Positions 6,587 through 63,177 of a stretch of DNA of 64,000 nucleotides are shown here, one piece after another. Origin of the DNA: Erythroxylum novogranatense (lineage: Eukaryota > Streptophyta > Magnoliopsida > Malpighiales > Erythroxylaceae); the NCBI GenBank assembly GCA_029891385.1, contig CM057225.1:76905887-76969886 (forward strand). Reading direction: 5' to 3'. The notes under the pieces are model-generated. The model saw only the letters and a program-made list of their open reading frames with translations. It was not told the DNA's origin and did not search any database. A program made the position numbers and the translations under genes. Positions within the stretch are counted from its first letter, which is position 1. Each line of letters starts with the position of its first letter.

Positions 6587-6590
6587 ATTG

Positions 6591-6601: not shown

Positions 6602-6934
6602 ATTTTATTATGCATGGTTTTAGTTCTTATATGTGATGCATGGGTTGGCAATTAAATTTTGTATGCTACATATTTGTATGTGATAGAAAATATTTGGTGT
6701 ATGTTTTGGTCTTTTGGTTGTCCATAGAATATAGTTTTACCTAGTAAGTTTTCTTTGTTTGGTTTGCAATAAGGAGGGTGGCCTATCATCTTCATGTTTC
6801 CTCCTTGGCTTCATTTTTTTATTTTCTTTGATTTTGTAATGTACAAATTTCTATAATATTGAAGATGGAGCAACCATGGATCGAAGAAAAGACTAGGTAA
6901 TGGTTTCGGTGTATCCTTTGGTGTATTAACAAAT

Positions 6935-7190
6935 TTTTGGTTTTGTGAAAACCAAAATTTTGGAATTTTATTTTAATAAAGATTCAGTTTTATGAAAACC
7001 AAAATGCTAGAAGTTTTGTTTTAACAAAGTTTCAGTTTTATGAAACACTAGTGTTGGAATTTTTTAGTTTCAGTTTTTTCCAAAAACAAATGTTGGAATT
7101 TTGTGAGTTAAGGATTTTCCAAAAACAAATGCTAGAATTTTTAGTTTCAAAGTGACAAAATTCGGTTTTATGAAATGACAATGTCATTAC
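6935..7190 (+). repeat. Degenerate tandem repeats in copia-1 leader
   Basis: About four imperfect units of roughly 60 bp share the blocks GGTTTTATGAAAACCAAAAT and TTGGAATTTT. They lie in the untranslated leader between primer site and gag. The surrounding leader, 6602-8182, has no other recognisable feature. Confidence 0.55.
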
Positions 7191-8818: not shown

Positions 8819-9642
8819 CTGAAAAATATTTGCAATGTTGGGTGAGTTTGCGAACTCAATGAGAAACCATCATCGATGGTTCACCCAACTCATGCATTCA
8901 CAAATCATATTCACATAGCACACAGTAGCATTTACGATATATCACGTGCAATTTCCTTACTCACATTTTCCGGTCATATGCGATCAATTTACATTTTGTT
9001 TTAGTCGGTCATATCGTATGCAATGCGCATGTGACACTTTTCTATTTTATTTTGTTGTTGTGACCGGCGCCTATCGGTGATCGGTAATCTAGGAGTAGGA
9101 GAGCCCTCGGGTATGCACTAACTCCCTCGAGCTCAAGGCTCGGTTCGATCTGATGTTTCGTTGGGCTTGAAGCCACGATCTGATGAGCTGTGGTGTCCGA
9201 AACCTGCGTGGGAGAGCCCTCGGGTATGCACCACCTCGAGGGCAAGCGATACCACGGCGATTCGTTGGCTGCTCGGTCACAACCGCCAATTATCGATCAT
9301 TTACTATGCATGAATGCACATGTCTCATTTCCAATTCTCACCATTTTCACTATCAGTCATTTTCCATTATGTCTTCGGACTTTTAGTCCGGCATCTCAGT
9401 CATATGCAATTCAATTTATTTTCACTAATGCATTCACAATTCAATTCATTAAACATTTCCAATTTAATTCATTCATACATTTGCTCACATTGGCACTTCA
9501 ATATCACAATCCAATATTTCGAACACTCATGGTCCGAAATCAATCAAAAACAATCACACAAATATCCATCCTTAACTCCTCATGGCATCAGTGCATATAA
9601 TTAATAAACACATAAGGCTGAGAAACCAACTAGGTTACTCAC
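8819..9642 (-). other. Putative conserved LTR intron (copy in B')
   Basis: On the minus strand a perfect donor, TAG|GTGAGTAACC, starts at 9642. An acceptor, ATATTTTTCAG|GG, ends at 8819, giving 824 nt. A three-way junction at 8837-8889 sits directly before the pyrimidine tract. The same arrangement occurs in five other LTR copies in this window. Function is inferred; splicing has not been shown. Confidence 0.5.
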
Positions 9643-10199
9643 CTATTACTTCCGAGCTATTGCCGGGAAGTCTCTGCAACGTCCGTGGAACGACGTTCCA
9701 ACTGAGCCTCTATAACAATAAAAATAAGTACACATTACCAACTGTATAGTTAGAATGACCAAACAATGCACATGGAATCATTAAAACGTGTATAATGCAT
9801 GTTCATGGCATTCCCGGCCCTAATCCAAAATTTTCTCGTCATAATAATTTCATCTAAAAATTAGAAAACTATAGCCACTGACAACACTCAATTCGGACCT
9901 CGATCGGTCCAAAAATAAATAAAACAGTGACTATAGAACAATTACCCGGGTCCACGTCAATTTCTCGGCTAAAAATTCCCAATTTCTCACAAAATGAAAT
10001 TCAATATGTTACCAATCCGATGTCTCAAGAATCAGGTCAATCGGACGTCGGATGGTAAAGAAATTGACAAAAGAAACCAAAATTCAAATTAAACAATTAA
10101 TATCTATATATATACCTAACCCTTATTCCCTTCTTTAATTTCTTGATTTCAAGCCAACTTTCAACACCAATAATTCATTGCACACAATTCAAAAAAATA

Positions 10200-11070
10200 C
10201 AAATTATACCTTGTTGGAAAGATCATAAAAACCTCTACAATTCTCAAGAAGACCATAAAAATCAATTTCACCACTAAGGGTGTCAAAAATCCCTTCAAAG
10301 CTACTGCCTACTCAAATCCCATTAAAACAGACAGTACATTGTAAATTCCATAACTCTCAGATTCTTCAGCCAGAAATTACCACATAAATATGTTCAATAA
10401 GCTCACAATGTCATCTACAACTTTCATGAACAACCCAAAATCAAATTCCATAACTAACTAGGTCAAACAATTCAACAAAAAATCAGTCTACTGAAATCAA
10501 CCAATCTGGACAGTAATTTTCCAAACAGTAATTCACTTAGCACAAATGTCACAAAAATCACAATCTTATATCTCTGAAAAGATAAGATCTCAAACTTCAA
10601 TTTTCATGAAGAACTCAAAATCCAATTCAATTTCTAACAATTTCAAAACTGTCATGCAAGTTACTGCCATGATCAGCAATTCATAACCTAATGCAGGTTC
10701 AATGTTTGAAAAATCATAACTCCCAAATCTGACCCCTAAGAATTACATGCAATATATCACTTTCAAGATAATTCCTTCCTATGCAACTTTGCAGAAGGTC
10801 ACTCACACCAATTCAGTTCACATAATTTGCTAAAATTGCTTCCAATCCGCAAGCTCACAAACTCAATACTTAGGCTAGGTTTCATCAAAAAGCTCAAAAC
10901 CAGTCAATAGAAATCAGTTCATATCTCCTAATATACAACTCGAAAATTAGCAAGATCAGTGGCAATGGAAAGCTAATAATGTAAGCTTCAACTCTCATGA
11001 AGACCATTTTCCCTAATTTCATCTCAATTAATTTAGAAAAATCAACAAAGTAATCAGGTCATATATGCAG
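10200..11070 (-). repeat. Array of degenerate LTR modules in B'
   Basis: About five imperfect units, 165-240 bp apart (near 10210, 10410, 10585, 10745 and 10985), share a CTACAACTTTCATGAA-like block next to a CATAACTC-like block. The same paired blocks occur in LTRs A, C and D. The shorter family B LTRs at 51154 and 57736 lack this array, which accounts for most of the 1.2 kb size difference. Confidence 0.5.
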
Positions 11071-12744
11071 GTACTGTTCACAGACCCTACAAACAGAAAC
11101 TTCCCATGCAAAATTCACCCTTCTAACATTACAATTTAACAACACCTATTTCACCCAAATTTGAAGCCAACATCCCAAAGTTTCATTAGGCACAAACCTC
11201 ACCTCATTTGCTCACCTACACAATTAGTTATCAAAACATTGCAATAGGTCAAATTGCATTTTCCAGCTTTTCAACTACAACCTATCTCCTATCACTTCTA
11301 ACATCAATAACACATCACTAAGCACCCATTTATACCTCTAATTCAGCCACAAACTTATCACAACATTTATTTGTATACTTAAACACACTTTGGCAGCTCA
11401 TACACAATTAACTTTCATTACTTTTCCATGCATCTAACCTTGCAAACTCAATCCAAACCAAGCCAAATCAATGGAAACCTTATTCATTCATTCATCCTTA
11501 CACAAGCATATATTTAAACCCATTTAAACCTACCCTTATAATGATCAAATAAATGCTCAAAGGATTCCCATGCATGCTTCTAACTACCAAAAGAAGGAAA
11601 GCAAATACAACTCTTACCTTAAACCAAATACAAACTCCCAATTCTCCAAGTCTTTAAACCTCTCCCCACTTCCTACCTTGATACCTCACCCACAGTTTTT
11701 ATAAGCATAACAAAGATCATCAACTCAAGGTGAGAGCTAGCTTTACATGAGGAGGAAGAGGGAGTAAGCAAAAGAACAAGTGGAACTTATATGGGAGGAG
11801 AAAGGAAGTAGTCGAAGGAGGAGAACATAATTGAAGGAAAAAGGCAAGTTTCGGATGAGAAGGAAGGTTGGCTTTCTAAAGCCTTCCAAAATGAATTGTT
11901 AAGTATGAAAAGGAGAAAAAGTCGTAGGTGATTCATAACATAAGACAAAGTCATTAATTCTAAGGGGACACTTGGCCTTTAATGAATGGAAAAGACAAAA
12001 ACTTAATTAACAACATTTAAACATAACTCTAATCCAATTTAATCTTAATCTATCATAATCTAATGGTTCCATAACAATTCCCACAATTATTTATTCACTA
12101 ATCCAATGCCATTAAGCAGTCCTTTTTTTTGTACAGAAAAATTCACTCAATCAGCCGAATTTTCCGGTCCGGGCAAGAACCCCGAAAAATTCCAGAAAAA
12201 TTCCCATAAATCCCTAAAAATGTAAAACACTCAATGGCGCAGTCCGAATAATTTTTTAAATACGATTTTCACATAAATTTCACAAAAGGTCACAATTAGA
12301 CACTTATGCCGGAAATGTCATGAATGCATGTATACCATGTGCAAGTGCAACAAACCATCAATCATAGAAGCTATATGTTGTATGTGCATGCCGAGATATA
12401 ATTTAATACTCCTGACCCGACTCAATTTACTACAATACCCTTCCCATCGGAGATGGGATGTTACAATCCAAACCTTTCATAATCTCAGACAAAAACTTGG
12501 TGAACCAGTGCGAGATTACATGCTTAAGGTAGTCTCTGTAGTTATTGATGCTAAGATGCTTAGGGCGGATATAGATGAGAACACATTGAGTGAGTTGATG
12601 AATACCCTTCAGAGTACAAAGGAGATATTAAATGTCAAGGCTAATGGACCAAAAGCTAATGCAGCATCTTTTTCTAAGCCCAAGGGTAAGGGCAAGCAAA
12701 AGAAGAAGGGTCCAACGAAAAAGAAGGCCTAAATAGGGGTCAAA

Positions 12745-37486: not shown

Positions 37487-40400
37487 TGTAGCGCCCCCTC
37501 ACCGCAGGGTACACATTGGGACGCCCGTGGGTCGTTCCGACGCATATCCCACGATAAGGAAGTGCTACTACGAAAACAATCTCTAAACACTCGCATGGCA
37601 TCAATACACTAAATTCCACAATATGAAAATCACTGAAATTTAAAACCATAATAATCATTCATTTATAACATCAATCCCAAAATATAGACCATCTATCAAT
37701 TCCTACAAAGCTAAATACATCTCAAAAGGGAAACCGATACAAACGCCTATACTAAGTCATCCCAAAACAATGTTCCCAAAAGAAGTCACCCCAAATGACC
37801 GACCTATGATCCATCATTGTCCTCGATCACGAACACTCACTGCGTAAACGCTATCCCGGAGCTAGAGTCCCACCGACGTCGTCTCGAAAATATATTGCAA
37901 TGTTGGGTGAGTTTATGAACTAAATGAGAAACCATCATTGATGGTTCATCCAACACATGCATATACATATACTATACCTCAAATTACACTTTAACGCTTT
38001 ATAAACACTATTCACAATTTACACATTATATTATATCACACGCAATATCACAATGCGCACTTTACACCGCCACATAATTCTCACATTACACTTCACAATT
38101 TACACAATTACAATATCACATATCAATCCACATTTTCATATGTCACTCATGCAATCTCCATCACACTATACACTCGGATGCATATGTATGCAAAGTCTCT
38201 TGTTATGACATTGTTGTGACTGAGCATTTATATTCACATTTTGGCAAGTAGGAGAGCCCTCGGGTATGCACTACGCCCACTCACTTTAGGGATAGGAGAG
38301 CCTCTCTGGTATGCACTATTCCTTTTCACAATGATCACAATTTAGGCAAATAGAGAGCCCTCCGGGTATGCACTCATCGCCGATTCGGCTCTGAGCCCTC
38401 TCATCGATAATCGAGCTCAAAGCTCAATCAACGTGTTCTAGTCACAACGGTAAATTTTACCGCTCATATCATGCTAGGCATGCGCCACACTTACACAAAT
38501 ACTAGCACATTTATCTCACTTCACTCACTTGTCACAATCGAGCTCTTATTCACAATTATATACACCGATTCTCATTCACATGAATTCACATTTATGTAGA
38601 TCACACTTGGTACAATCACTAACACTTATCGCATTTAGCTCATTCACTTCACATGTATATCACTCACCTTACACTTAATTTATACATATTCACAAAGACA
38701 TATAATCACTTAAAAGTCGAGGAACCAACTAGGTTACTCACCAGTAACTTCCGAACTCTTTGCTGAAGTCCCAAATATCCGTGGTCCGACGATCCAACGG
38801 AGCCTCTAAAACAATCAAACAATTTCTCATCACTAGGTGCTCAATTAAAGATATTCAATAATGCACATGTCTTTAATTCAAACTTGTATGATGCATGTTC
38901 ATGATTCTACCAAGACTAAACCCAATTCGCTATCGCCACTTTACAACCAAAATTCACTATTCACTAGGTCAATAGCATTCCCTTTAATTCAATTTCACTC
39001 ACTCAAACTCTAATCATACTCCGCTAGTTACAACGTAACTCTTTGGTCACATTAAAACTATAATGGACTCTCTTTCGATACTTGCAATCCCGTAAATCAA
39101 AATTCAAACTCTCAATCTTTATCACAATGATAGACCTCTTTCTCTAGTTCATAACGAATCAAGTATCACCTTAATTGGAATACCATAGACCAAGATATCA
39201 TCACATCATCAAACATGTTCAAGAAACATCTAGTTCATGTTCCTCCAAGAATACCCTTACTTTGACTCACTTAATCATTTCCAATTTAATACTAAAACCC
39301 ATAAATTGTTTGTGGAGAGATTAAGAAATGTGTTAGGAATCCAATGCTTCAAGAATCAGGTCATTTGGAGTTCTATAACTCAAGTTATCCTCAAAACACT
39401 GATCTATGCACGATCGCTTTCCTTCCGTCGATTTTTGCTTCACTGGTTTTTGCTTCAATGATTTTTGCTTCACTGATTTTTGCTTGAACATGTCCACTTA
39501 TATAGATCATATCTTTTGACTCAATATCCAAATTGGACAAACTTGACATCTATCTCATAGAGAAAAGAAAGATCTACAACTTTCAAGAAGGAAATTTTGT
39601 CTAAATCTATCTATATCACGTCCATATCGTCTACTTTTGATTCAGCTGATTTTCCTTCACTGATTTTCGCTTCAAACTGATTTTCCTTTCAACTGGTTTT
39701 CGCTTCAGAACATGTCCACTTATATAGATCATATCTTTTGACTCCAATATCCAAATTGGACAAACTTGACATCTATCTCATATAGAAAAGAAAGATCTAC
39801 AACTTTCAAGAAGGAAATTTTGTCTAAATCTATCGATATCACGTCCATATCGTCTGCTTTTGCTTCAGCTGATTTTCCTTCAATTGATTTTCGCTTCAAA
39901 TGATTTTCCTTTTAGCTGGTTTTCGCTTCAGAACATGTCCACTTATATAGATCATATCTTTTGACTCCAATATCCAAATTAGACAAACTTGACATCTATC
40001 TCATAGAGAAAAGAAAGATCTACAACTTTCAAGAAGGAAATTTTGTCTAAATCTATCGATATCACATCCATATCGCCTGCTTTTGCTTCACCTGATTTTC
40101 CTTCACCGATTTTCGCTTCACTGATTTTCCTTTCAGACATATCACCTAACACTAAAAGTTTTCTCAACCACTCATTTAACACTATAACAGAATTTATTCC
40201 TCCCCAACTACCCAGGATTTATGAACAAACACATGAAATACATCTTTCCATGAAAACGCATGTAAATCTCTCAACTTTATTTCATAAATCTCTAACAATG
40301 AGGGGTTTCTCTAACACTTACACTGTTGAGAACTCAAATGATCTTCAAGCTCTAAACTCCACACTAAAAGATCAGCTTATGGATTCTCCTTAGAGTCGAC

Positions 40401-45605: not shown

Positions 45606-45617
45606 GCTCTGATACCA
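45606..45617 (-). other. Primer-binding site of element C (tRNA-iMet)
   Basis: The minus strand reads TGGTATCAGAGC, a 12-base match to the complement of the plant initiator-Met tRNA 3' end. It is 5 bases from the LTR, with GTTTGGCAT-like sequence following. Confidence 0.95.
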
Positions 45618-46015: not shown

Positions 46016-46873
46016 CTAAAAATATATTGCAATGTTGGGTGAGTTTGCGAACTCAATGAGAAACCATCATTGATGGTTCATCCAACACATGCATATATAT
46101 ATACTATACCTCAAATTACACTTTAACGCTTTATAAACACTATTCACAATTTACACATTATATTATATCACACGCATATCACAATCGCACTTTACACTTA
46201 TCACATAATTCTCACATTACACTTCACAATTTACACAATTACAATATCACATATCAATCCACATTTTTCAGTATGTCACTCGTGATCTCCATCACACTAT
46301 ACACTCGGATGCATATGTATGCAAAGTCTTTTGTTATGACATTGTTGTGACTGAGCATTTATATTCACATTTTGGCAAGTAGGAGAGCCCTCGGGGTATG
46401 CACTACCGCCCACTCACTTTAGGGATAGGAGAGCCCTCCGGGTATGCACTATTCCTTTTCACAATGATCACAATTTAGGCAAATAGAGAGCCCTCGGGTA
46501 TGCACTCTCGCCGATTTGGCTCTAGCCCTCTCACCGATAATCGAGCTCAAAGCTCAATCATCTGTGCTCTATTCACAACGGTAAATTTTACCGCTCATAT
46601 CATGCTAGGCATGCGCCACACTTACACAAATACTAGCACATTTATCTCACTTCACTCACTTGTCACAATCGAGCTCTTATTCACAATTATATACACCGAT
46701 TCTCATTCACATGAATTCACATTTATGTAGATCACACTTGGTACAATCACTAACACTTATCGCATTTAGCTCATTCACTTCACATGTATATCACTCACCT
46801 TTACACTTAATTTATACATATTCACAAAGACATATAATCACTTAAAAGTCGAGGAACCAACTAGGTTACTCAC
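46016..46873 (-). other. Putative conserved LTR intron (5' LTR of element C)
   Basis: On the minus strand the donor GTGAGTAACC starts at 46873 and a TATTTTTAG acceptor ends at 46016, giving 858 nt. The acceptor side begins with the three-way junction at 46034-46086. The primer site lies downstream, so a spliced RNA would keep it. Function is inferred. Confidence 0.5.
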
Positions 46874-47621
46874 CAGAACTTCCGAAGCACGCTGAAGTCC
46901 CAAAGAATATCCGTGGTCCGATGATCCAACGGAGCTCTAAAACAATCAAACAATTTCTCATCACTAGGTGCTCAATTAAAGATATTCAATAATGCACATG
47001 TCTTTAATTCAAACTTGTATGATGCATGTTCATGATTCTACCCAAGACTAAACCCAATTCGCTATCGCTCACTTTACAACCAAAATTCACTATTCACTAG
47101 GTCAATAGCATTCCCTTTAATTCAATTTCACTCACTCAAACTCTAATCATACTCCGCTAGTTACAACGTAACTCTTTGGTCACATTAAACTATAATGGAC
47201 TCTCTTTCGATACTTGCAATCCCGTAAATCAAAATTCAAACTCTCAATCTTTATCACAATGATAGACCTCTTTCTCTAGTTCATAACGAATCAAGTATCA
47301 CCTTAATTGGAATACCATAGACCAAGATATCATCACATCAACTGAAACATGTTCAAGAAACATCTAGTTCATGTTCCTCCAAAGAATACCCTTACTTTGA
47401 CTCACTTAATCATTTCCAATTTAATACTAAAACCCATAAATTGTTTGTGGAGAGATTAAGAAATGTGTTAGAATCCAATGCTTCAAGAATCAGGTCATTT
47501 GGAGTTCTATAACTCAAGTTATCCTCAAAACATCGATCTATGCACGCATCGCTTTCCTTCCGTCCGATTTTTGCTTCACTTGGTTTTGCTTGGTGATTTT
47601 TGCTTCACTGATTTTTGCTTC

Positions 47622-48270
47622 GAACATGTCCACTTATATAGATCATATCTTTTGACTCCAATATCCAAATTGAACAAACTTGACATATATCTCATAGAAA
47701 AAAAAAGATCTACAACTTTCAAGAAGGAAATTTTGTCTAAATCTATCGATATCACGTCCATATCATCTACTTTTGATTCAGCTGATTTTCCTTCACTGAT
47801 TTTCGCTTCACTGATTTTCCTTTCAGCTGGTTTTCGCTTCGAACATGTCCACTTATATAGATCATATCTTTTGACTCCAATATCCAAATTGGACAAACTT
47901 GACATCTATCTCATAGAGAAAAGAAAGATCTACAACTTTCAAGAAGGAAATTTTGTCTAAATCTATCGATATCACGTCCATATCGTCTGCTTTTGCTTCA
48001 GCTGATTTTCCTTCACTGATTTTCGCTTCACTGATTTTCCTTTCAAATTGGTTTTCGCCTCGAACATGTCCACTTATATAGATCATATCTTTTGACTCCA
48101 ATATCCAAATTGGACAAACTTGACATCTATCTCATAGAAAAGAAAGATCTACAACTTTCAAGAAGGAAATTTTGTCTAAATCTATCGATATCACGTCCAT
48201 ATCGTCTGCTTTTGCTTCAGCTGATTTTCCTTCAGCTGATTTTCGCTTCAGCTGATTTTCCTTTCCAGGA
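47622..48270 (-). repeat. ~221 bp tandem repeat, 3 units, in right LTR C
   Basis: Units begin GAACATGTCCACTTATATAG at 47622, 47841 and 48062 (spacing 219 and 221). Loss of a multiple of 3 in some units keeps frames open on both strands, producing long chance frames such as 47478-47960. Confidence 0.9.
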
Positions 48271-51200
48271 CATATCACCGAACACTAAAAGTTTTCTCAA
48301 CCACTCATTTAACACTATAACAGAATTTATTCCTCCCCAACTACCCAGGATTTATGAACAAACACATGAAATACATCTTTCCATGAAAACGACAGAAATC
48401 TCTCAACTTTATTTCATAAATCTCTAACAGCAAAGGGGTTTCTCTAACACTTACCTGTTGAGAACTCAAACAGATCTTCAAGCTCTAAACTCCACACGAA
48501 AAGATCAGCTTATGGATTCTCCTTAGAGTCGACAACACCAAAGGTAGAGAAAGGTTGGTGAAAGAAAGAAAGAACACCAAAGTCCCTTAGAAGATAATTT
48601 GGGTAGGAAAGCTCTATGTCTCCGAGAGAAAAGTTTTTTTGGAAGAAAATGAATAAAGAAGGCTTGGACAAGACTTAACCCATCAGCCCTCAAGGAATAG
48701 TGACCACCTACTCCTAGCTAGGGTACAAAGTCCAAGTACACATGTCACTTTCTTAATGAATAAACTATAACTTAGTTACTTTTGAATTAACTCCATTTAG
48801 TTCTCCCCTTTCCAATATAACCAAACTATCTCCAACACTTCATTTAATTAATTCTTGCTCCCAACTATAAATATATCTTCCAATACACCATAAATTTACC
48901 AGCATATACAAATACAATAATTTCACCAAAATTCATAATCGCAAGATTTCATTAACCCAATTATTTCAACATTTTAAATAATCACAATTCACAAAATCAT
49001 CTCAATTTCACTTTTCCAAACACAATCACTATCAAATGCCTAACAATCATGAATACATGTCACTATGTATATGCATGTGCAAAATGATCTATCTCTAAAA
49101 TCAGAGGCCACAAAACACTCGATCACAAATTAAGCACTAACAACTCTACACTCATAACACGATGCTCATCGCATCGGTAACGGGATGCTACATAATGCAT
49201 ACTTCCTTAATATCAAAAGATTAGAATTTTACAAGCTCTAATGGCATTCCAAACCAAAATACAATATCAATATCGAAATCCGAATATACAAAATACACAA
49301 CTCCCAAAGTTCTCAACAACAATCTAACTTATAAATAATACAATATGAACACATACAAACAACAAAACCTTCACTTCCCTTCACCCGATCTTCTTCTCAT
49401 CACCTGTGGATGGGAGTGAAGGGGGGGGGGAGGGGCTGAGCTTATAGCTCATAAGTAACAGGTTTATAACAAAGAATAAGCAAAACTGTTGAAATGTTCA
49501 TTTGTTATATAAAAATCATAATGAGTTCATAAAATGCTTTGTTCCCAAATCTCAGTCAAATTCGAATTTTGAATTCAAAACTCATAGTTGAAAATTGTCA
49601 TCACATCAACACTGCATATCCATTTAACCATCAATACAAAACACTCAATTTATGCACATATTTGACAATTCAAAGATGCAATGCACAAACAAATGGCTCG
49701 AGAGTTCCGTGGAACAAAACGGATAAACCGAAGCTTATATCGTGAACAAAACGAGTCCGATTTCTCAAGATCTTGTGGCCTCAAGCGGGCAGCCGGGAGA
49801 AGGCTATATGTCGATGTGCACGTGACTAACGAAACGTTCCTCTCTCGCACAAACAGAAGCACATAATCCTGCTCAAATCATTTTCAAATGCTTTCATGTT
49901 TTTCATGCTCTTTTCTTTCTATTCCGAATATACAAAATGCCATGAATTTTCCAAGGCATAACATAAAATATTTCAATGCATTCCCATCTTTATTTTGAAA
50001 TTCATCAACAAAGTTCATATACCGAAACATGTAGAAATTTTGCAAATCATTCAAAAGAAACCAAAATAACATTTATGAAGTAATTGAAATCATTCTTGAT
50101 TTGGAAGAAAACATTATTGGGTCATTGCTAAATTATAAACATGAAACCTACCTGAATTCCTTGCTTGGATACATGCTTAAAAGATGCCTCTCATCTTGAT
50201 CCTCTTGCCTTCCTTGATTCCCTTTATCAAATACAAAATTCCCATTCAATAGGAATACAATTTGAAGACCCAAATATTGCATATTCACTAAGATAAATTC
50301 TAAAAACTCAAACTCTTCCAACTGTCCAAACATTCGGGTCAATTTTTCATGATCACTTTAGTAATATTCTCTTCTATAAAATGTTTCCCATTGTCTTAAG
50401 TTTCTAAAGACTCCAAAATCATTCAATTTTTTTCAGAAATCCGAAAGTTATACTCCAAACATATTGGGACTATCCTTATGTTGAAACAAGAATCTATACT
50501 CAACTTCCATCCAAAATTTGAGATCTTTAAAAACTGAATTAAAACTTCTTTTCTTCATAAAACTTGTAGACATTTGTCTCTATTTTACAACGAATCAAAA
50601 ATCACTTCATTTGGACATCTACATCAAAAGTTATGTCCAAAATATCAAAACATGTCTGTGTAGGAAAACAGGAGCTCCAGAAGCTCGCCGCGGCGTAAAA
50701 TCCTAGAGCTCGCTTGCAATAAACCCGAAGCTCACATGACGAGGGTGCTCGCACACACCAAGGTCGTGATGCGCATCTTGCTGGCGCCACTCGGTGGCGC
50801 CATATCACGACTGCGACTTGACGCCTGTGTGTGCGTCGCGACGTCGTAGACCTAAACCTTCCAACACTTTTTTCCGACATTTTCATCTTCATACTTCCCA
50901 TATTTCACAAATAACTTATCTTAAACCTAAATCATCATTCCTACTTCATTTCCAAACTCATTTCAACACAAAAATCATTCGCAAACACAACAAAATCATT
51001 AACCCTAGAACACCGTTCATCAATATCATCCTACCCACATTCAACCCCATTTTTCACTTCTAACGATCACTAAACATAATTCATTCAACATGTAGCGCCC
51101 CCTCACCGCAGGGTACACATCGGGATGCCCGACACGTATCCCACGATAAAGGTTGTAACATCCCATCTCCGATGGGAAATGATACTTTGGTAAATTGGGA

Positions 51201-51733
51201 CGAGTTAGGAGTATTGAATTAGAACTCGGCATGTGCATACAGCATATAGCCTCTATGACTGATGATTGTTTTGCATATGCACATGATAACATGCATTCAT
51301 GACATTTTCCGGCTTAGGTTTCAAGTTGAGACCTTTTGTGAAATTTTATAGGATAATAGTATTTGGAAAATTATTTGGAGTGTGTCATACATTGTTTCCC
51401 ATTTTTAGGGATTTATGGAAATTTTTCTGGAATTTTTCGGGGTTCGTGCCCGGACCGGAAAATTCCAACTGACGGGCTGAGTGAGTCTTTTTGTACTGAA
51501 AAGGAATTGCCTAATGGCATAAGATTAGTGCATAAATAATTGTGGGAATTATTTAAGTGCCATGATTAGAGGTTAATTGGGTTTAATGCTAAATTGATTA
51601 AGATTAGTTAGATGTTTGTCTTATCTCAATTAAAATGCCAAGTGTCCTCTTCATTTTTGTCTCTTTATATGCATCATCCACGACTTTCAAAGTTGGAGCC
51701 TCCCTTGTCACACACGTTTATCATTCTTTAGTG

Positions 51734-51740
51734 TATAAAT
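51734..51740 (+). promoter_or_regulatory. TATA box candidate, LTR B
   Basis: TATAAAT in a GTGTATAAATTATC context, in the U3 part of the LTR. The 3' LTR has the same site near 58308. Confidence 0.4.
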
Positions 51741-52781
51741 TATCTCCTTGAAAGTTGAACAAGAGTGTTTTTAAAAATTGAAAAGTTCATCCTCAAAACC
51801 ATCCTCCTCCTCCTTCGAAATTTTCTTCTACTTATCTCCTACAAGACACTTCTTAGTTCCTTGCTTGCTTTTCTTCATACACAAGCTAAGTTGAAACTTT
51901 GAATTGATGATGCTCTTTGGGATGCTTGTCATAACCGTGGATGAGGTTTGAAACAAAAGAAGTTGGTGTGAACTTAGAGCTTGGAGGAAAGTAGAGCTTG
52001 TAACTCATTTAAGGTAAGTAGTTTGGTTATATTCTTTCTTTTAGTAGGTAGAAGCATGCATGGAGACTATTTATATGTGTACTTGAGCATAAGAAGGGTA
52101 GGTTAGAATGGGTTTCATTATGTGCTTATATATGGATGAATGAATGATTATAGTTTTAAGTGAGTTTTGGCTTGGTTTTGGATTGAGTTTGTTAGCTCAA
52201 ATGAAAGGAAACAAGTATGATAATTGGGTAGATATGTGCTGCCAAAGTTTAGTAAATTATATAAGTGAATGTTGTGATTAGTTTGTAGTTGAATTAGAGG
52301 CTGATTTCTTATTTTATTTTTTTTATTATTATTTTTATTTGTTAATTGATAATTTGGAATTTCTTGCTTCTTTTGTCAATTTCTTTTCCGTCCGATGTCC
52401 GATTGACCTGATTCTCGAGGCATCAGATTTGTGAAATATTGAATTTCATTTTGTGAGAAATTGGGAATTTTTAGACGGGAAATTGACGTAGCCGGGTAAT
52501 TGTTCTATGGTCACGTTTTATTTATTTTCGACCGATCGAGGTCCTAATTGAGCATCGTCGCTGGCTATAGTTTTCTAATTTTAGATGGAATTTTATTACG
52601 GAAAAAATTAGGATTTTGGGCGAAATCTCATGAACATGCATTATACACTTACATGTGCATTATACTAATTCGGATTGGATAATTAGTGATCGGATTCCTC
52701 TCTGCTTGTTATAGAGGCACATTTGGAGCGTCGATCATCGACGTTCTATCGAAACTTCCAGATGTTAGCTCGGAAGTACAA

Positions 52782-53649
52782 GTGAGTAACCTAGTTGGTT
52801 CCTCAACCTTTATGTGTTTAAGTTTTTGCAATTATGCCATGTGGAGATAATGGAGGGTTTATGTGTGTTTGAATTTGATTGATTTGGACCAAAGGTGTAC
52901 AAATATTTGGAATGAGATAACGAAGTGCTACTTGTGAGTAATCGTTTGTAAATGTTATATTGAGATCTCGGACCGAGGTCCGAGGAAATGGGAAATTGAT
53001 ATTGAAGTGTTAATTGTCTGCATTTCGTTCGATACATTGGATGGGATTGTAAATGTGATATAGTAGGATGCAATAAATTGGAAATGTAGATAATTGAAAT
53101 ACTGGACCGAAAGTCCAAGAATTGGCAAATAGTAATGATATGTAAATGGAAATTGGAATATGTACATTGCATGCATAAACATAAATGTGTGATCGATAAA
53201 AGGCGGTTGTGACCGGAGCACCCATCGATCGTAAGCATATCACGCCTAACGATGTGAGAGCTTTCACCAACGCACAGACCTCGTGTCCAACGTATTCAGA
53301 GCCGCAGCTCAATGTATCGTGGCTTCAAGCCCAATGTTTTCAGAGCCACCGCTCAACGCAATGTGCCCGCTCTCGGGACGATTTGCCATGCAGTCCTGAA
53401 CAACGAAATGAAAATGGAATAGTGTCACATGCGCATTGCATATATATATATGATCAGTAAATGACCGAAGATGTAAATGATGAAATTGTATGTGTATATG
53501 AAATTGGGCTGAAATGTGATAATATGTGATATTATCATTAATGCTACCGTGTGCTAATATGATTGGTGAATGCATGAGTTGAGTGAACCATCGATGATGG
53601 TTTTCACCGAGTTCGCAAAACTCACCCAAAATTTGCATCTATTTTTCAG
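52782..53649 (+). other. Putative conserved LTR intron (5' LTR of element B)
   Basis: The donor is TACAA|GTGAGTAACC; here one G of the usual AG|GT is missing compared with LTRs B' and D. The acceptor is CATCTATTTTTCAG|AC, giving 868 nt. The three-way junction (53579-53629) lies immediately before the pyrimidine tract. The downstream primer site at 54010 would be kept after splicing. Not demonstrated. Confidence 0.5.
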
Positions 53650-54009
53650 ACTTAGAAGAATACCCGTTAGCAACAGGCGTATGACATCTGCCGTCAAGAA
53701 GCGGAGAAGTGGTCGGGATCGGTTCGCGTGCATCTTAGTGTTTCTATTCTTGGACTTTTGTATTACTAATTTGGACAAGTTGTAAAGTCAATTGACCAAA
53801 TAAATTGTAATCAGACAAAGTGGGCCCAAGGCCATTGAATTGATTATATATAAATTGCTTTCGCGTTAATGATAATATGTGTGCGATTGTGTAAAAAAAT
53901 GTTATATCGAGTTTTCATCGAGTGATGTAGACGCCACCCATGAGGCACGGACTGGATATCACCGTCGATGTCGGGTTCGGGTCTTCATGAGTGAGGTGTT
54001 ACATTTAGG

Positions 54010-54020
54010 TGGTATCGAGC
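54010..54020 (+). other. Primer-binding site of element B, one base short
   Basis: TGGTATCGAGC differs from the standard TGGTATCAGAGC by loss of one A. It lies 6 bases after the LTR end. Either the copy or the sequence read has lost a base. Confidence 0.75.
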
Positions 54021-57000
54021 CCAAGAGTACGTAATGTATCCGGGCACAATGCGAAATATAGGTGCATGTATTTAAGTCATGTCACGTGAGACAAGGACAA
54101 CCGATCCCCATGTAGTCTATGGGTTGTATGCATAAGTATGTCTCGATCGTTTTAGCGGTTTAAAAAAAAAAAAGGAGAAAAGGATAATGTATTAGAATGT
54201 GAGAAAAGGAAGAAATGGATATCATAAAATAGGAAAGAGAGTATGGTTTGATCGACATGACATTTAATATCTAGTGTATTGAGATTGACGGTATATTGTG
54301 AAGTGTAATATAGGCGTTATATTGGGAATATCTATAAAGATGATAGTTGTAAAAGTCGAGAGGAAAATAGAGATGTGACAATGGTAAGATGTCCGATGTA
54401 TAAGGTAAATGAAAATAAAGTGTTCTATGATATAGAAAGGTTACAACTAGGATTGATTACCATGTTAAGAGTTATAAATAAGGATTAGTGATTTGGAGTC
54501 AAAATATATTAAGTGAAAAAAATCAAGAATGATTTCATATCTGTGATATTGATTTGAAAGTCTTGAAATATATGGGTATAATGCAATAATGAAAAGATTG
54601 AAATGTAAAACAATGAAATTGGTAGATGAAAAGTTGTTCTAAGTTTAATTGATCTGTCTAATTAAATGCACACCGATTATGGGAGCCCTATGATAAGTGA
54701 AAATGTTAAGTCGCAATTGATAAGTTAATGGATACTTGCTAGCCAGAAGTCTTGTCAAAAAAAAAAATTCCTTTATGAGTTAGAAGAAGAAATGAAAGTG
54801 CTTATAACGATCAGATGTCAATGACTAGAGATTGTATATGATCCTCACGAGCGAGGACGGGTGTAAATAGGAAGATTATTGAGTTCAGATTATATGATCA
54901 CTATAAGTGTATATCTAATAGTGGGATTACCATCATGGGTGAAATGAGCAAGCATAAATGAATAAATTGTGTGAATATGATATAGGAAGTAATCGGTGGC
55001 CTATTACGTAAGCTCAAACTATAATGTCGGTAGCTCAAGTTCAAAATGAGTGAGAGTAAGGCATGAGAATGTTCAGAATGATCAATTGCGAAAGAAGTGA
55101 GACAGTTAAAGATGTTCGCATTGGTAATGAGCTTGAGAGCATAAAATGAGGGACATGAATAGAGTAAGGTCCCCATGATTAAGAATTGGTACCAAAAAGA
55201 GAATGGTTATCGAGAATTAAATGCAATTAAGGTATTCTTAGTAGTATGATCTATTAACGGGCACATTGATAAGACTATTGAGATATATTGTCAGATAGGA
55301 TGTGATGATTAGGGTGATGATGGCAAGATAGTAGAGGGAAAGAAATTGTTTAAGTGCTCTTCAGAGATTGATCTTCATGAAGTATCAAGAGTAACTGATA
55401 TGTATATTTATATAGTGAAAAAAAAGTTGATTGGTAAAGTTTTATGATTTGTATTACATCCGCGAGACTCTAGCTTAAAAAACTAAACTATGCTCTTTGA
55501 AAGAGTGTACATTATGTTAATGAGATGGTTACGATTATGTAAGAGAATTCTCAATATTAATTGCGCCTTTGAGGGGATTAAATGTTCGTATACTTTGTGT
55601 AATTATGTTCGAAAGTACGAGATCGATATAACGATTGTTTATTCAAGTCAGTAAATGATCTATCACGAATAAATTGAGTTATGTGGAGAAATGAAGGTAA
55701 GGAACATGTGGCGTAATATGTTATGATGAGACAAATTAAATGAAAATTGTTCCTTATTGGAGACGCTCGATAATGAAAGAGTTATAGAGTCAACTAAGGG
55801 TATAAGTTTATTGTATTCTTGAAAAGGAACATGTCTCAATTGTGTTTGGAATGGATAATGGATATAAGCATAAAAAATAGATGAATTGGTATAGTTGAGG
55901 AAATTGGTTGACATGCAAGTCTCTTAAGAGTGAATCTTAACCTGATTGAATGAATAAAGGATGAATTAGTATGCGAACATGGGATATTGGGAGAATTAAT
56001 CAAGATATGAGTATTGATAAAATGTGAAAGTTCAAAAGATATGTGTATGCGGAATTTGGAATTAATTAGAGCTAACGGGATGCTGGATACGTTTAGAAAT
56101 CGTTAAAGATTTTCTGGTTTTAGCAAATTGATAAGTATACTTGAGGGAAACATGTGAATGTTATGACTGATGATCATAAAGGAGACATTTGAAGAATTCA
56201 CTATCTATACTGAAATGTTCCAGTAAAGGTTCTGAAGTGATCTATGGAAATTGTATAAAGTGATTTTATATACCTTGGGGGAAATATAATTCCATGGGCG
56301 GTATTATAATTGATGATTTGAACTTTGTTCTACTGAGTGTGACCTAAAAGCTTGGAGACATTAATCGTACAGAAATAGTTTGGAAATGTCTATGAATATG
56401 TAAATCGATACCGATTGAGTTATTTCATGCAGTTGAATGATTTGAAAAGGATTCAACGGCTGATTACTCCAAACTAAGTTAATGGTGCAATTCAAGGGAT
56501 TGAGCAAATAAATAAATAAATTCTATTGCAGAAGATTAAAATTTGGGTAATAAGGTTATCAAATCTAGTGTATTATTGAGTGTTAATAATCGAACTGACA
56601 AAAAGGGGTAAAAAGAAAGCATGATTAGTTATGGGAATTTCAAAGTTGGTGTGCATCAAAACGGATTGGCAAAACCCGAAGTGTGGATGTAGAAATTGTA
56701 AACCGTGTCGAGGAACCAAGATAACTCAATTGTTAAGGAAAGTGATAGGTATAGTTCAAATTAAGGAATATGGATGATACTCATTGCGGGAACTGTTAGT
56801 GAAAACGTAAGGAATGATCGAAGTTTTAAGTTCTAGCAAGAGTGTATTGATAGAGTAATTGAAAGGTTAGAATGGGAAATCGAATGATTATAAGTGAATG
56901 GTTCGAGAAAGCACAAGAAACAATCGAAGCGTTACGGTCTAGTAAAAGTATTGTGGAAAAGAAATTGGGGGATACCAATCAAAGTGCACGATGACATGTG

Positions 57001-57735: not shown

Positions 57736-60587
57736 TGTAACATCCCATCTCAGATGGGAAATGATACTTTGTAAATTGGGACGAGTTAGGAGTATTGAAT
57801 TAGAACTCGGCATGTGCATACAGCATATAGCCTCTATGACTGATGATTGTTTTGCATATGCACATGATAACATGCATTCATGACATTTTCCGGCTTAGGT
57901 TTCAAGTTGAGACCTTTTGTGAAATTTTATGGGATAATAGTATTTGGAAAATTATTTGGAGTGTGTCATACATTGTTTCCCATTTTAGGGATTTATGAAA
58001 ATTTTCCGAATTTTTCGGTTCGTGCTCGACCGGAAAATTCCAACCGACGGGCCGAGTGAGTCTTTTTGTCTTGAAAAGGAATTGCCTAATGGCATAAGAT
58101 TAGTGCATAAATAATTGTGGGAATTATTTAAGTGCCATGATTAGAGGTTAATTGGGTTTAATGCTAAATTGATTAAGATTAGTTAGATGTTTGTCTTATC
58201 TCAATTAAAATGCCAAGTGTCCTCTTCATTTTGTCTCTTTATATGCATCATCCACGACTTTCAAAGTTGAAGCCTCCCTTGTCACACACGTTTATCATTC
58301 TTTAGTGTATAAATTATCTCCTTGAAAGTTGAACAAGAGTGTTTTAAAAATTGAAAAGTTCATCCTCAAAACCATCCTCCTCCTCCTTGAAATTTTCTTC
58401 TACTTATCTCCTACAAGACACTTCTTAGTTCCTTGCTTGCTTTTCTTCATACACAAGCTAAGTTGAAACTTTGAATTGATGATGCTCTTTGGGATGCTTG
58501 TCATAACTGTGGATGAGGTTTGAAACAAAAGAAGTTGGTGTGAACTTAGAGCTTGGAGGAAAGTAGAGCTTGAACTCATTTAAGGTAAGTAGTTTGGTTA
58601 TATTCTTTCTTTTAGTAGGTAGAAGCATGCATGGAGACTATTTATATGTGTACTTGAGCATAAGAAGGGTAGGTTAGAATGGGTTTCATTATGTGCTTAT
58701 ATATGGATGAATGAATGATTATAGTTTTAAGTGAGTTTTGGCTTGGTTTTGGATTGAGTTTGTTAGCTCAAATGAAAGGAAACAAGTATGATAATTGGGT
58801 AGATATGTGCTGCCAAAGTTTAGTAAATTATATAAGTGAATGTTGTGATTAGTTTGTAGTTGAATTAGAGGCTGATTTCTTATTTTTTTTTTTTATTATT
58901 ATTTTTATTTGTTAATTGATAATTTGGAATTTCTTGCTTCTTTTGTCAATTTCTTTTCCGTCCGATGTCCGATTGACCTGATTCTCGAGGCATCGGATTT
59001 GTGAAATATTGAATTTCATTTTGTGAGAAATTGGGAATTTTTAGACGGGAAATTGACGTAGCCGGGTAATTGTTCTATGGTCAATTTGTTTTATTTATTT
59101 TGGACCGATCGAGGTCCGAATTGAAAATCGTCGGTGGCTATAGTTTTCTAATTTTAGATGGAATTTTATTACGGGAAAAAATTAGGATTTTGGGCCGAAA
59201 TCTCATGAACATGCATTATACACTTACATGTGCATTATACTAATTCGGATTGGATAATTAGTGATCGGATTCCTCTCTTTGTTATAGAGGCACATTTGGG
59301 CGTCGATCTCATCGACGTTCTTGAAACTTCAGATGTTAGCTCGGAAGTACAAGTGAGTAACCTAGTTGGTTCCTCAACCTTTATGTGTTTAAGTTTTTGC
59401 AATTATGCCATGTGGAGATAATGGAGGGTTTATGTGTGTTTGAATTTGATTGATTTCGGACCAAAGGTGTCTCAAATATTTGGAATGAGATAACGAAGTG
59501 CTACTTGTGAGTAATCTTGTTTGTAAATGTTATATTGGAGATCTCGGACCGAGGTCCTAGGAAATGGAAATTGATATTGAAGTGTTAATTGTCTGCATTT
59601 CGTTTGATACATTGGATGGGATTGTAAATGTGATATAGTAGGATGCAATAAATTGGAAATGTAGATAATTGAAATCTGGGACCGAAAGTCCAAAGAATTG
59701 GCAAATAGTAATGATATGTAAATGGAAATTGGAATATGTACATTGCATGCATAAACATAAATGTGTGATCGATAAAAGGCGGTTGTGGACCGAGCAACCA
59801 TCGTGTCGGGGCATATCACGCCTAACGTATGTGAGAGCTTTACCAGCGCACAGGACCTCGGGTCCAACGTATTGAGCCGCAGCTCAATGTATCGAGGCTT
59901 CAAGCCCATGTTTTCAGAGCCACCGCTCAACGAAATGTGCCCGTTCTTGGGGCGATTTGAGCGCATCACACAACAACAAAATGAAAATGGAGCAGTGTCA
60001 CATGCGCATTGCATATATATATATCGTAAATGACCGGAAGATGTAAATGATGAAATTGTATGTGTATATGAAATTGGGCTGAAATGTGATAATATGTGAT
60101 ATTCTCATTAATGCTACCGTGTGCTAATATGATTGGTGAATGCATGAGTTGAGTGAACCATCGATGATGGTTTCTCCGAGTTCGCAAAACTCACCCAAAA
60201 TTTGCATCTATTTTTCAGACTTAGAAGAATACCCGTTAGGCAGCAGGCGTATGACATCTATTTGTTGAAGAAGCGGAGAAATGGTCGGGATCGGTTAAGC
60301 GTCTGTCTTAGTGTTTCTATTCTTGGACTTTTGTATTACTAATTTGGACAAGTTGTAAAGTCAATTGACCAAATAAATTGTAATCAGACAAAGTGGGCCC
60401 AAGGCCATTGAATTGATTATATATAAATTGCTTTCCGCGTTAATGATAATATGTGTGCGATTGTGTAAAAAAAAAAATGTTATACTGAGTTTTCTACTGA
60501 GTGATGTAGCACGCCACCCTCGCGGGGCACGGACCTGGATATCACCGTCGATGTCGGGTTCGGGTCTTGCGGGAGTGAGGTGTTACA
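57736..60587 (+). repeat. 3' LTR of element B
   Basis: 2852 bp, nearly identical to 51154-54003, with scattered indels, often in homopolymers or at CG. It carries the same intron candidate and three-way junction (60149-60198). Confidence 0.95.
59353..60218 (+). other. Putative conserved LTR intron (3' LTR of element B)
   Basis: GTGAGTAACC donor at 59353 and TCTATTTTTCAG acceptor ending at 60218, giving 866 nt. Same layout as in the 5' LTR. Confidence 0.45.
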
Positions 60588-60893
60588 AAGGTGCACTACC
60601 AGAACAGTTTCACTAATATCCACATGGCATCGCAGTAATTAAATCACAATATAACATAAATCAGTACATTAAAATTTACAATATCGGTCTTCATACGGTC
60701 ATCCAATGGCGAAATAGACAAGTCTATCGGTTCCCTAAACAAAACCAAAAAGGGAAACTCATACAAGCATCTATCCTAAGTCATCCTCAAAAGCTAACCC
60801 AGCTGACCGACCTGTGTGCCATCGCGTCTCTTGCGGCGGCTTCTTGCGGCGGCAGAAAAGAATATCTTCTGAGCTAGAGTCTACTCTATCACC

Positions 60894-61987
60894 CTGAAAA
60901 TATATTGCAATTTTGGATGAGTTTGCGAACTCGGGAGAAACCATCATCGATGGTTCACTCAAATCATGCATTACGCGTATCGCGTACAACACAGTACAGT
61001 ACTAGTTAATTAACGGTATCGTACACTAATTTCAGTACTATACTGATGGTTTACTGATGTTGCATCACAATTCTGATGAGTTTATAACAGTTTACGAAAT
61101 CATACATAACGATTTACGATGTCATGTCACGATTCGCGATATTATGCGATTCTGATAAATCATGTCATCACGTAATCAGTCATTGTCATAACTTAGTCAT
61201 TCATGTGTATGCAATGCATATGAGACTCTTTTCTAGTTATTCAGTGTTGTGCCCAGCGCTCGATCGGTGATCGATGGGGCGCGTCGAGATTTCTCCCTCG
61301 GGCTAGGCGGTCAAGACAAATGTTCGAGGATAACTCCCTGGGCTCGAGGCACAGTCGATAATAATCGCGACTTGGGTCACATTCTATTATCGATCATGCG
61401 ATTATGCATGCAATGCAATGTTTTCGATGATTCGATTATGCGGCTAAAAAGCCCAGATATTACGGTGTTGATAATCGCTCGATATGGCTATAAAAGCCCG
61501 ATATTGATCCCAGTGTCACGTAACGATGCAGCTCGATTCGATAAAAGCGTGCAATCCAATCGTACACTTTTCAAAGAGTCATGCGATCATACGGTACAAT
61601 TCACATTGTTCAATCCTATACAATAAAAGCACGTAATTGATCACATACATTTCAAGAATAATACAGTTCACTCTTATACATTTCGGTGGTCATGCGATGC
61701 AATTCGATCACATATATTTCAAGAGTCATGTAATTCACATTGAGCACACTTGCACAGTCACTAGCACATGTATATCACTTCACTCGCTATCTTAATCAGA
61801 ACACTAATGCATAACTCTTTACACTGATTCACATTCACTAATGCTCACATTCACTCACAATCAGAACACTTATTCATAATTGCAGCATATTTATTTCACA
61901 CATGTATCACTCACATTGTCAATTTAATCACACATATCACAGCACATTTTATCACACAAGGATTGAGGAACCAACTAGGTTACTCAC
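60894..61987 (-). other. Putative conserved LTR intron (solo LTR D)
   Basis: On the minus strand the donor is a perfect plant consensus, CAG|GTGAGTAACC, starting at 61987. The acceptor ATATTTTCAG|GG ends at 60894, giving 1094 nt. The three-way junction at 60912-60963 precedes the pyrimidine tract. Confidence 0.5.
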
Positions 61988-62544
61988 CTGTAACTTCTGA
62001 GCTACTGCCTGGAAGTCTCAGCAATGTCCGTAGAACGACGGTCCAACGGTGCCTCTATAACAGTAAAGTACAGTCTATTACTAATTGCTCAATTAACTAA
62101 TTCAGTAATGCATATGTCTAAGAGAAATGATGTACAATGCATATTCACGTTTTCAGGTGCAAATACCCAAATTCGATATCCTATGCTCAAATTCAACTTT
62201 CCACTCTATTGGATCAACACTGATTTGGTTCAATCCTCAATGCAGTTCAATTTTCTCAATTCATATACCCTATAACAATTTCATATCCATCACCAAATTA
62301 TCCAAAGAAAATCTCAATTAGAACTCCAATTGTCTCAATTCAATACTTAGATCACACTATAACCTATAATTAACCTTAATCTCAAGAATCGCACCATTTC
62401 AATTAAATTCCAACTCTCAATTTTCCTTAATGGTAAACCTCTTTCCTAGTTCACGATGAAATTGAGAATCACCTCAATCGGAGGTCTACACCATAAGTTA
62501 TGTCCAATAAACCCACATATATATATTCAATCGAAAATTGACCC

Positions 62545-62745
62545 TTTCGTCATGACGTGGGCACTTCGCTTGTCGCGACGTGGAGGCCGCTTCGTCGCGT
62601 CAAGACAAAACCATGCTCGTCGCGATGTGGAAACCACTCGTCGCGACGTGCTAATCCACTCTCGTCGCGACGCGTCTACCCGAGCTCGTCGCGACTAATA
62701 AGTTTAATTAAATCTAATTACTCGTCGCGACGAAGCCCTAACACT
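62545..62745 (-). repeat. Cluster of CGTCGCGACG palindromes in LTR D
   Basis: About seven full or partial copies of the 10 bp palindrome CGTCGCGACG, often as CTCGTCGCGACG, within 200 bases of otherwise AT-rich DNA. Family A LTRs have decayed equivalents. Confidence 0.85.
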
Positions 62746-63177
62746 TCGTGTTTCAAATCGACGACGCGAAGACCGATCGTCTTCTCCGATCGATCTTCCG
62801 CCATTAATACACTTAAAACCTCCATTAAACACTCCAACTACCAAATCTAACCCAATAAATGCCATAAAATACTCAAATAACCAGAATAACAACATTAAAC
62901 TATAGAAACTTACCAATCGAAGAATCAAATCCGTAAACCCTAAAATCCTTCGAAACCCACGATCAAACACTCTCCAAGCTTCTAACCTTCACCAATCACT
63001 ATAGACATGTTAGTCTAACACATTGAGGGGAAAACCATAAGAGAAAATCAACGAATCTCACCAATGGGAGAAATCGCACGACACCGTCGAAGGAGAGAAG
63101 ACTCACCGTGGGAGGGAAAAGAAGAAATCGATTTTGCCTTAGGTCATTAGGTAAGTTCCCCCAAATTTCAACTTAGC

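Follow-up and report, generated by a model that had tools for sequence, protein, structure and literature searches.

Long terminal repeats of chromodomain Ty3/gypsy elements in Erythroxylum novogranatense probably hold several spliced introns, the last of which appears to be kept in the reverse-transcribed RNA

The subject of this work is a stretch of 64,000 nucleotides of the genome of Erythroxylum novogranatense (assembly GCA_029891385.1, contig CM057225.1, positions 76,905,887 to 76,969,886 of the forward strand; the window in what follows), in which six long terminal repeats (LTRs) of Ty3/gypsy retrotransposons, here called B 5', B 3', B', C left, C right and D, share an intron-like segment. 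A first-pass annotation of the window had proposed this segment as an intron; we agree, with the amendment that it is not the sole one, being preceded by an intron 1 and an exon 2 and, in D, by a 75-nt intron A further upstream. LTRs from which these introns are missing to the nucleotide were found elsewhere in the 1.3-Gb genome, and they are rare for the last intron, hereafter intron 2. The reading that we favour, with a probability of roughly 0.78 and on the evidence of DNA sequence, is that the LTRs of these chromodomain elements carry in the R region two or three introns spliced by the host, and that intron 2 is kept in the template for reverse transcription. Sense introns should vanish when spliced RNA is copied; here they persist in tens of thousands of LTRs despite splicing.

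LTR layout and donor block

The segment, intron 2, is the last intron of each LTR; intron 1 precedes it, and some families also have an intron A, so that an LTR holds two or three introns in all. The order is exon 1, ending at G|GTAAG, intron 1, an exon 2 of about 67 nt, which starts with AGGC or nearly so and ends at the annotated donor, intron 2, and an exon 3 that runs to the LTR end. Exon 1 ends with TTTAAG| in B and B', CAACAG| in C right and CGATTG| in D, while the exon 1 donor of C left is CAACAGTGTAAGTG, one base longer than in C right. Intron A (73–81 nt), which interrupts exon 1 in D and certain other families, was sought with a pattern that gave 13 rows; since this pattern already required CTAA(C/G/T), it offers no independent test of the branch point, and one of its rows, L074 (116 nt), is probably a false assignment. 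For intron 2 a candidate branch point, CTCAC, was read by eye near the acceptor. Wherever a 5' LTR and the site are recognisable, a primer-binding site (PBS) of the TGGTATCAGAGC kind lies 3' of the LTR.

The claim that all six LTRs carry a donor block in sense orientation was borne out by six exact copies of the 19-mer GTGAGTAACCTAGTTGGTT in the window (0 expected by chance), and allowing up to 3 mismatches added no further copy there. A T-rich acceptor follows about 824–1,094 nt 3' of the block; the CAG or TAG announced for it is present in five LTRs (TTTTCAG, TTTTTCAG or TTTTTAG), and not in C left (37886), where TTTTCGAG is read and the site is broken. The donor context is, as had been stated, a perfect AG|GTGAGT in D and B', with AA| in B and TG| in C. 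In the whole genome, the block with up to 2 mismatches gave 18,594 + 18,579 = 37,173 matches on the two strands, against 16 + 19 = 35 for the reversed control, and a hairpin sequence on the acceptor side gave 18,056 + 17,846 = 35,902, against 0 + 0. A scan of IMG/VR for the donor block returned 0 matches. Chance similarity was ruled out by the controls for the donor block in the window and genome-wide, for the acceptor hairpin and for the exon 2|exon 3 junction described below.

LTRs lacking introns

Spliced RNA that is reverse-transcribed must leave LTRs with exact exon junctions. The exon 2|exon 3 junction pattern was found at 18 places (reversed control, 0), six of them true and 12 in an unrelated repeat. 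Seven LTRs at five loci lack intron 2 to the nucleotide, namely the six true places (L059 to L064) and L097, which came from the exon 1|exon 2 search below. Two of them (L059 and L060, contig C1), 3.8 kb apart on one strand with a stretch like a polypurine tract (PPT) before the second, are without introns A, 1 and 2. L063 and L064 (contig C10) are both LTRs of one element with PBS, PPT and the target site duplication (TSD) TCTTA on both sides; they are without introns 1 and 2, and their LTR pieces are 92–96% identical. L062 (contig C9), a solo LTR with TSD AATGT, is also without introns 1 and 2, as is L097, which appears to retain intron A. Finally, L061 (contig C6), a solo LTR with TSD TTAAC, is without intron 2 only; the 3' end of its intron 1, acceptor included, is deleted. 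Thus, a genome search for LTRs missing exactly this segment, suggested in the first-pass annotation, is positive, though with few copies, and the annotation's statement that no such LTR is seen holds for the copies that it listed in the window, not for the rest of the genome.

LTRs without intron 1 were found in larger number. The exon 1|exon 2 pattern with up to 2 mismatches was met at 71 + 98 places (control 1 + 1), 10 with no mismatch, 44 with one and 115 with two. Among the 115, 46 were listed, and most of these bear the intron and end in ATAG, while a few look like more junctions. Of the 54 places with at most one mismatch, 50 were fetched, the other four being L059, L060, L063 and L064. 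In 45 of the 50, intron 1 is missing and the donor block of intron 2, changed in a few, comes directly next; the rest are L097, L092, which is cut short, and three places that are not junctions (L075, L111 and L117). The 45 LTRs make up 31 loci when places up to 9 kb apart on one strand are joined, with two to four LTRs each in 11 cases. Grouping at 85% identity gave at least four sets that extend beyond a single locus, which indicates that copies without intron 1 have multiplied. By contrast, no group at this identity joins two intron-2-less loci among those compared (L059/L060, L062, L063/L064 and L097, with L061 left out). One family shows the losses in steps: introns A, 1 and 2 are all present in L019 and L045 (the intron 1 donor of L045 is mutated), L077 is without A and 1 and keeps 2, and L059/L060 are without all three. 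As a separate observation, four intron-1-less LTRs (L100–L103) stand on one strand at a spacing of about 4.9 kb in G000 C10:15285580-15300386, like an array of elements that share LTRs.

Judged from these DNA copies, spliced RNA exists and is occasionally reverse-transcribed. Plain deletion as the source of the short LTRs was rejected, since the losses end exactly at splice sites. For the same kind of reason it is highly improbable that there is no intron at all, the conserved blocks being DNA or RNA motifs that resemble splice sites and the short LTRs being deletions. The six window copies, taken alone, are compatible with such motifs, and one of 56 donors is not GT and five of 55 acceptors are neither CAG nor TAG in the sample described below; however, separate loci have lost sequence to the same GT/AG nucleotide, two or three introns at once in some and in both LTRs, and, while one precise copy could be chance, 52 LTRs (45 + 7) could not. 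The opposite polarity, in which intronless LTRs are ancestral and the introns were gained, is compatible with any single locus, but we give it still less credit, because the ends of intron 2 are seen some 36,000 times and across 31 clusters, few copies lack introns, and L059/L060 are close to the intron-bearing L045 and to L077, which has intron 2.

How rare the loss is

A sample was taken of 61 distinct copies with the acceptor-side hairpin, made of 38 loci extracted by the search, 20 fetched loci and the window. The donor block is recognisable in 57 of them and absent in four, and one copy was dropped for too little sequence; 55 copies gave both ends of intron 2 and fell into 31 clusters at 80% identity. 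With the same letters, the six exact exon 2|exon 3 junctions compare with 17,302 exon 2|donor boundaries (control 0) and 13,777 acceptor|exon 3 boundaries (control 1). Among the 57 copies 21 match the former boundary, 29 the latter and 11 both, from which about 5,000–9,000 LTRs would be comparable; this suggests a loss of intron 2 near one in a thousand. For the intron 1 pattern both sides were matched in 6 of 32 copies with enough upstream sequence, and a loss near 0.7% is our rough guess from that sample. Since intron 2 junctions are rare and the intron-2-less copies compared form no multi-locus group, RNA that retains intron 2 seems to be the usual template. This agrees with the bias to unspliced RNA claimed earlier, in that RNA with intron 2 looks like the form normally reverse-transcribed.

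Conservation of intron 2

The ends of intron 2 are far more conserved than its interior. In the 31 cluster representatives with a recognisable donor block GTGAGTAA is invariant (31/31), as are four T before the CAG (31/31), whose C, A and G are found in 94, 94 and 90%; in the whole set the donor is GT in 55 of 56 copies and the acceptor CAG or TAG in 50 of 55. As measured by the share of the commonest letter, averaged over columns, exon 2 stands at 79%. Within intron 2 the value is 95% for the first 25 columns, 58% for the interior and 94% for the last 65 columns; for the 60 columns that open exon 3 it is 62%, so that conservation drops at the 3' splice junction. When the 22 columns of the search anchor are removed, the 42 columns from the hairpin to the AG still give 92% and the 20 columns 5' of the hairpin 82%. 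The annotation had named GT and AG free to vary between conserved flanks as a sign against an intron; what was found is the reverse, with conserved splice ends and a diverging interior and exon 3.

In exon 2, TGCTGGGACTTCCAGGCA alternates with TCTTTGGGACTTC-AGCA, with small variations, in L083/L084, L098/L099, L113/L114 and others, and the change recurs between LTR pairs and families. It looks like a systematic basecalling error of long reads at a CCAGG site, which is perhaps methylated. Noise of this type may account for some of the broken splice sites and for junctions that were missed, so that the numbers of junctions given here are lower bounds.

Predicted RNA structure at the ends of intron 2

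The donor of intron 2 lies in a near-invariant predicted hairpin, UGAG-U-AACC-UAGUU-GGUU-Y-CUCA. The 28-nt hairpin has a predicted energy of −8.5 kcal/mol, with z scores of −3.7 in D and −2.7 in B 3', and in the 31 representatives its positions pair in 98% of cells, compared with 74% and 83% for two helices in exon 2. On the acceptor side, AACCAUC-GAU-GAUGGUU and GAGUU-CGCA-AACUC are two candidate hairpins 5' of the T run, and both are present in the best fold of D (z −1.9). Two candidates were discarded: covariation gave the hairpins no support beyond shuffles, hence only conservation and pairing are claimed here, and a three-way junction on the acceptor side, read by eye, has pairs that are inconsistent across families. 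We also observed that the two ends of the intron share arm sequences (UGAGU..AACC and GGUUUCUCA); by eye, the donor has two possible partners, a local one and the 3' arm on the acceptor side.

Transcription start, leader AUGs and alternative functions

Intron A is among the introns lost, and two elements have lost introns in both LTRs; the RNA must therefore begin 5' of intron A. In reverse transcription LTRs are rebuilt by R-U5 strand transfer, and LTRs rebuilt in this way from a spliced 5' end place the introns most likely in R and not in U5. Therefore, the earlier statement that a spliced RNA would lose part of U5 stands for the splicing of the segment and probably not for the region. Exon and intron models were made for 15 copies, others being dropped where the exon 2 acceptor, the LTR start or the exon 1 donor was not recognised. 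Ten of the 15 have a TATA-like box 100–500 nt 5' of the exon 1 donor, from which the start of exon 1 was guessed in these 10. The modelled copies contain 474 ATG in intron 1, 472 in intron 2, six in exon 2 and 134 in exon 3, with 50 in exon 1 of the 10 copies with a guessed start. ATG frequency in intron 2 is 1.8 times that expected from base composition in the 15 copies. With leader AUGs mostly in introns, translation by plain scanning would gain from splicing.

It could then be that the introns serve expression only, trimming upstream AUGs and raising mRNA output, and that intron 2 is spliced slowly, which would produce the template bias as a side effect and without a packaging signal. The position of the leader AUGs fits this; moreover, the amplification of intron-1-less copies means that intron removal as such is tolerated, and the donor hairpin alone could slow splicing. 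We nevertheless hold it to be rather unlikely, because the conserved blocks of intron 2 (95% over 25 columns at one end, 92% over 42 unanchored columns at the other) go far past a splice-site consensus, intron 1 has, by eye, no comparable blocks, and no two of the four intron-2-less loci compared, without L061, group at 85% identity.

A different role is conceivable by analogy with foamy viruses (precedent in PMC3694450), in which U1 small nuclear ribonucleoprotein bound at a donor in R would suppress premature polyadenylation (poly(A)) in the 5' LTR, the folded donor would release it in the 3' LTR, and splicing would be secondary. Here too an LTR harbours the donor, which precedes the presumed poly(A) region and is predicted to lie in a hairpin; however, poly(A) sites are presumed only, exactly excised copies show that splicing occurs, and the conserved block on the acceptor side is left unexplained, for which reasons we judge this role improbable.

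Element class

The elements are chromoviruses, that is, Ty3/gypsy elements with a chromodomain, as read from the domain order upstream of the 3' LTR in a single copy, L054. One open reading frame (ORF) of that copy contains RT_RNaseH, Integrase_H2C2 and rve (the last below the cut-off), and a second ORF, with SH3_Tf2-1 and Chromo, ends within about 15 bp of the LTR start. The long LTRs, the TGTAACATCC ends and the TGGTATCAGAGC PBS suggest a putative placement in the Tekay/Del clade. The introns are not placed as in Ogre elements, between gag-pro and the reverse transcriptase, since they lie within the LTR and upstream of the PBS. ORFs with a Transposase_32 domain (putative plant transposon protein) were seen near some LTRs (L039:89-967 and L049:5811-6599).

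Features of the window

Element B, on the plus strand, is bounded by the TSD AAGGT on both sides (51149-51153 and 60588-60592) and is inserted into LTR D. Its 5' LTR (51154..54003) has a TATA-like box at 51734, an exon 1 that ends in TTTAAG| at 52013, intron 1 (GTAAGT...TTATAG) at 52014..52714, whose homologue is exactly missing in other copies, the 67-nt exon 2, conserved between families, at 52715..52781, intron 2, i.e., the annotated segment, at 52782..53649, and exon 3 at 53650-54003. The donor hairpin covers 52783-52805 and the acceptor-side hairpins lie at about 53580-53625. A PBS-like site, one base short of TGGTATCAGAGCC, follows at 54010-54021. The 3' LTR (57736-60587, plus strand) has intron 1 at 58585..59287, exon 2 at 59288..59352 and intron 2 at 59353..60218.

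The other LTRs are on the minus strand. LTR D is a solo LTR with TSD TGTTG that runs from 63481 to 60588, is interrupted by element B and resumes at 51153-51091. Its 75-nt intron A (62987..63061; GTGAG...CTAAC...GTGAAG) corresponds to an intron of 80–81 nt that is exactly missing in L059, L060 and L077; intron 1 is at 62055..62913, exon 2 at 61988..62054 and intron 2 at 60894..61987. LTR B' (12465-8410, TSD TGGAT), also a solo LTR, has intron 1 at 9710..11617, exon 2 at 9643..9709 and intron 2 at 8819..9642. C right (about 49192-45623) is the 5' LTR of element C, with a PBS at 45606-45617, intron 1 at 46937..48454, exon 2 at 46874..46936 and intron 2 at 46016..46873, with a TTTTTAG acceptor. 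C left (41047-37487) is the 3' LTR, and its intron 2, with the broken acceptor, occupies 37886..38741. The layout given earlier is thus to be amended, in that C right is a 5' LTR on the minus strand and B' and D are solo LTRs; the placing of a PBS 3' of the intron stands for B 5' and C right, the two 5' LTRs.

Some neighbouring features may be recorded. Intron 1 of both C LTRs holds three tandem direct repeats of about 220 nt (39522-40190 and 47658-48319). A long interspersed nuclear element is at 31733-35034 on the minus strand, with an ORF for DUF4283 and a zinc knuckle (33973-35034) and an ORF for an endonuclease and reverse transcriptase (31733-34018). LTR B' adjoins at about 12465, and is probably inside, a Ty1/copia-type element (gag_pre-integrs domain at 12979-13503).

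Proposed model

In the model that we prefer, with regulated LTR introns, transcription would start upstream of exon 1. The RNA would begin with exon 1, which intron A divides in some families, and continue through intron 1, exon 2, intron 2 and exon 3 to the PBS and the coding region, and each intron could be removed separately. RNA retaining intron 2 would be the normal template of reverse transcription; RNA without intron 1 alone would act as template now and then, giving lineages that multiply, and RNA without intron 2 would be copied very rarely, into copies that seem to leave no descendants. Intron 2 may then be a regulated, retained intron, with its donor in a hairpin and its last 65 nt or so forming a conserved block with predicted hairpins. 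Its retention could sort the RNA, molecules that keep it becoming the genomic template, and molecules from which the introns are removed becoming the message, with many upstream AUGs gone. The means could be packaging, nuclear export or splicing speed. What the sequences show are the introns, their past splicing, the occasional copying of spliced RNA into DNA and a strong bias in the surviving copies. The role of the donor hairpin is inferred, as are two points already suggested in the first-pass annotation, a packaging signal within intron 2 or next to it and the use of spliced RNA for translation.

We would go one step further only tentatively, somewhat short of even odds. A hairpin-gated intron wholly in R, duplicated in both LTRs at each round, might be a switch between a translated and a reverse-transcribed fate of the RNA; copies made from the wrong RNA would lose the switch and leave no descendants. 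A single system of this type would have persisted across the families of a group that ranks among the most abundant LTR retrotransposons of the genome, with about 36,000 recognisable LTRs.

Several points weigh against the preferred model or narrow it. The template bias could stem from inefficient splicing of intron 2 and not from a choice of unspliced RNA. Covariation in the donor hairpin is nearly absent, with one both-sided change, in helix 3, among the 31 representatives; the three-hairpin structure as a whole is not above shuffled controls, and the 96 nt of exon 2 plus donor do not fold better than shuffled sequence (z −1.1). For B', the best fold of the acceptor side (z −2.5) differs from that of D, although the B' centroid contains the first hairpin with part of the second. 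The conservation figures depend on how the copies were chosen: for most of them the search anchor was an exact 22-nt acceptor hairpin, the donors had to match the block pattern with at most 4 errors, and a TATTTTTCAG-like pattern defined the acceptors. Part of the acceptor-side conservation is thus a product of that anchor. As for the losses, the intronless element on contig C1 (L059/L060) has no matching TSD, the intron-1-less LTRs include amplified subfamilies and hence represent fewer events than LTRs, and the junction-pattern search gave 0 copies for a second class of exon 3 (GATAGANTAGAC). Finally, the positions of the transcription start and poly(A) sites are inferred from sequence, and only 8 of 55 copies have AATAAA in the 450 nt that follow the acceptor.

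If the preferred model is right, the rare failures preserved as DNA turn per-intron loss rates into a measure, countable in any genome, of how strictly the template RNA stays unspliced. This would bear on the open question of how plant gypsy elements split one RNA between translation and replication, and would help to explain why such LTRs are long. In practice, LTR annotation may split intronless copies from their families.

Comparison with known systems

Plant LTR elements are described as generally without introns, Ogre and EVADE being notable exceptions (PMC12786077). Introns wholly inside plant LTRs were found in no description in an aimed search of open-licence PMC papers, among the matches listed, and in a review of CRM elements (PMC3059260) a term search met no mention of introns, splicing, transcription start, polyadenylation or untranslated regions. 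In Ogre, of the Tat lineage of Ty3/gypsy, the intron is reported to be spliced from only part of the transcripts (PMC6317226); the likeness to a plant gypsy element with a partly spliced intron is clear, but here the introns are inside the LTR, upstream of the PBS. Splicing to a short gag separates RNA pools for translation and replication in EVD/Copia93 and BARE (PMC12786077, PMC3735527), with introns in the gag/protease region, whereas here they are in the LTR. For BARE, moreover, amplification of DNA made from spliced RNA is reported not to have succeeded (PMC3735527), while such copies were found here. New insertions of ONSEN, a Ty1/copia element, can be spliced from host transcripts, and splice sites in its LTR have been suggested (PMC12112155); in that case the whole insertion acts as an intron of a host gene, whereas here donor and acceptor are in the element's own leader and in one LTR. 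Cer1 of Caenorhabditis elegans is an LTR element that must export its unspliced genomic RNA (PMC10309623), with the difference that its splicing makes the message for a separate protein (PMC12786077).

Nearest in logic, by analogy, are the LTR donor of foamy viruses and cauliflower mosaic virus (CaMV). The partner acceptors of the foamy virus donor lie outside the LTR, whereas here donor and acceptor are both inside. As described, the major splice donor of foamy virus is in the LTR, upstream of the poly(A) signal, and has RNA structure at it (PMC3694450); the donor of intron 2 resembles it as an LTR donor in RNA structure, although here the structure is predicted and the position of the poly(A) signal presumed. 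CaMV differs in having no LTR and its main acceptor in the coding region, but its 35S RNA is reported to have a leader with splice donors and short ORFs, and some of its spliced RNAs to be reverse-transcribed into deleted DNA (PMC4498817).
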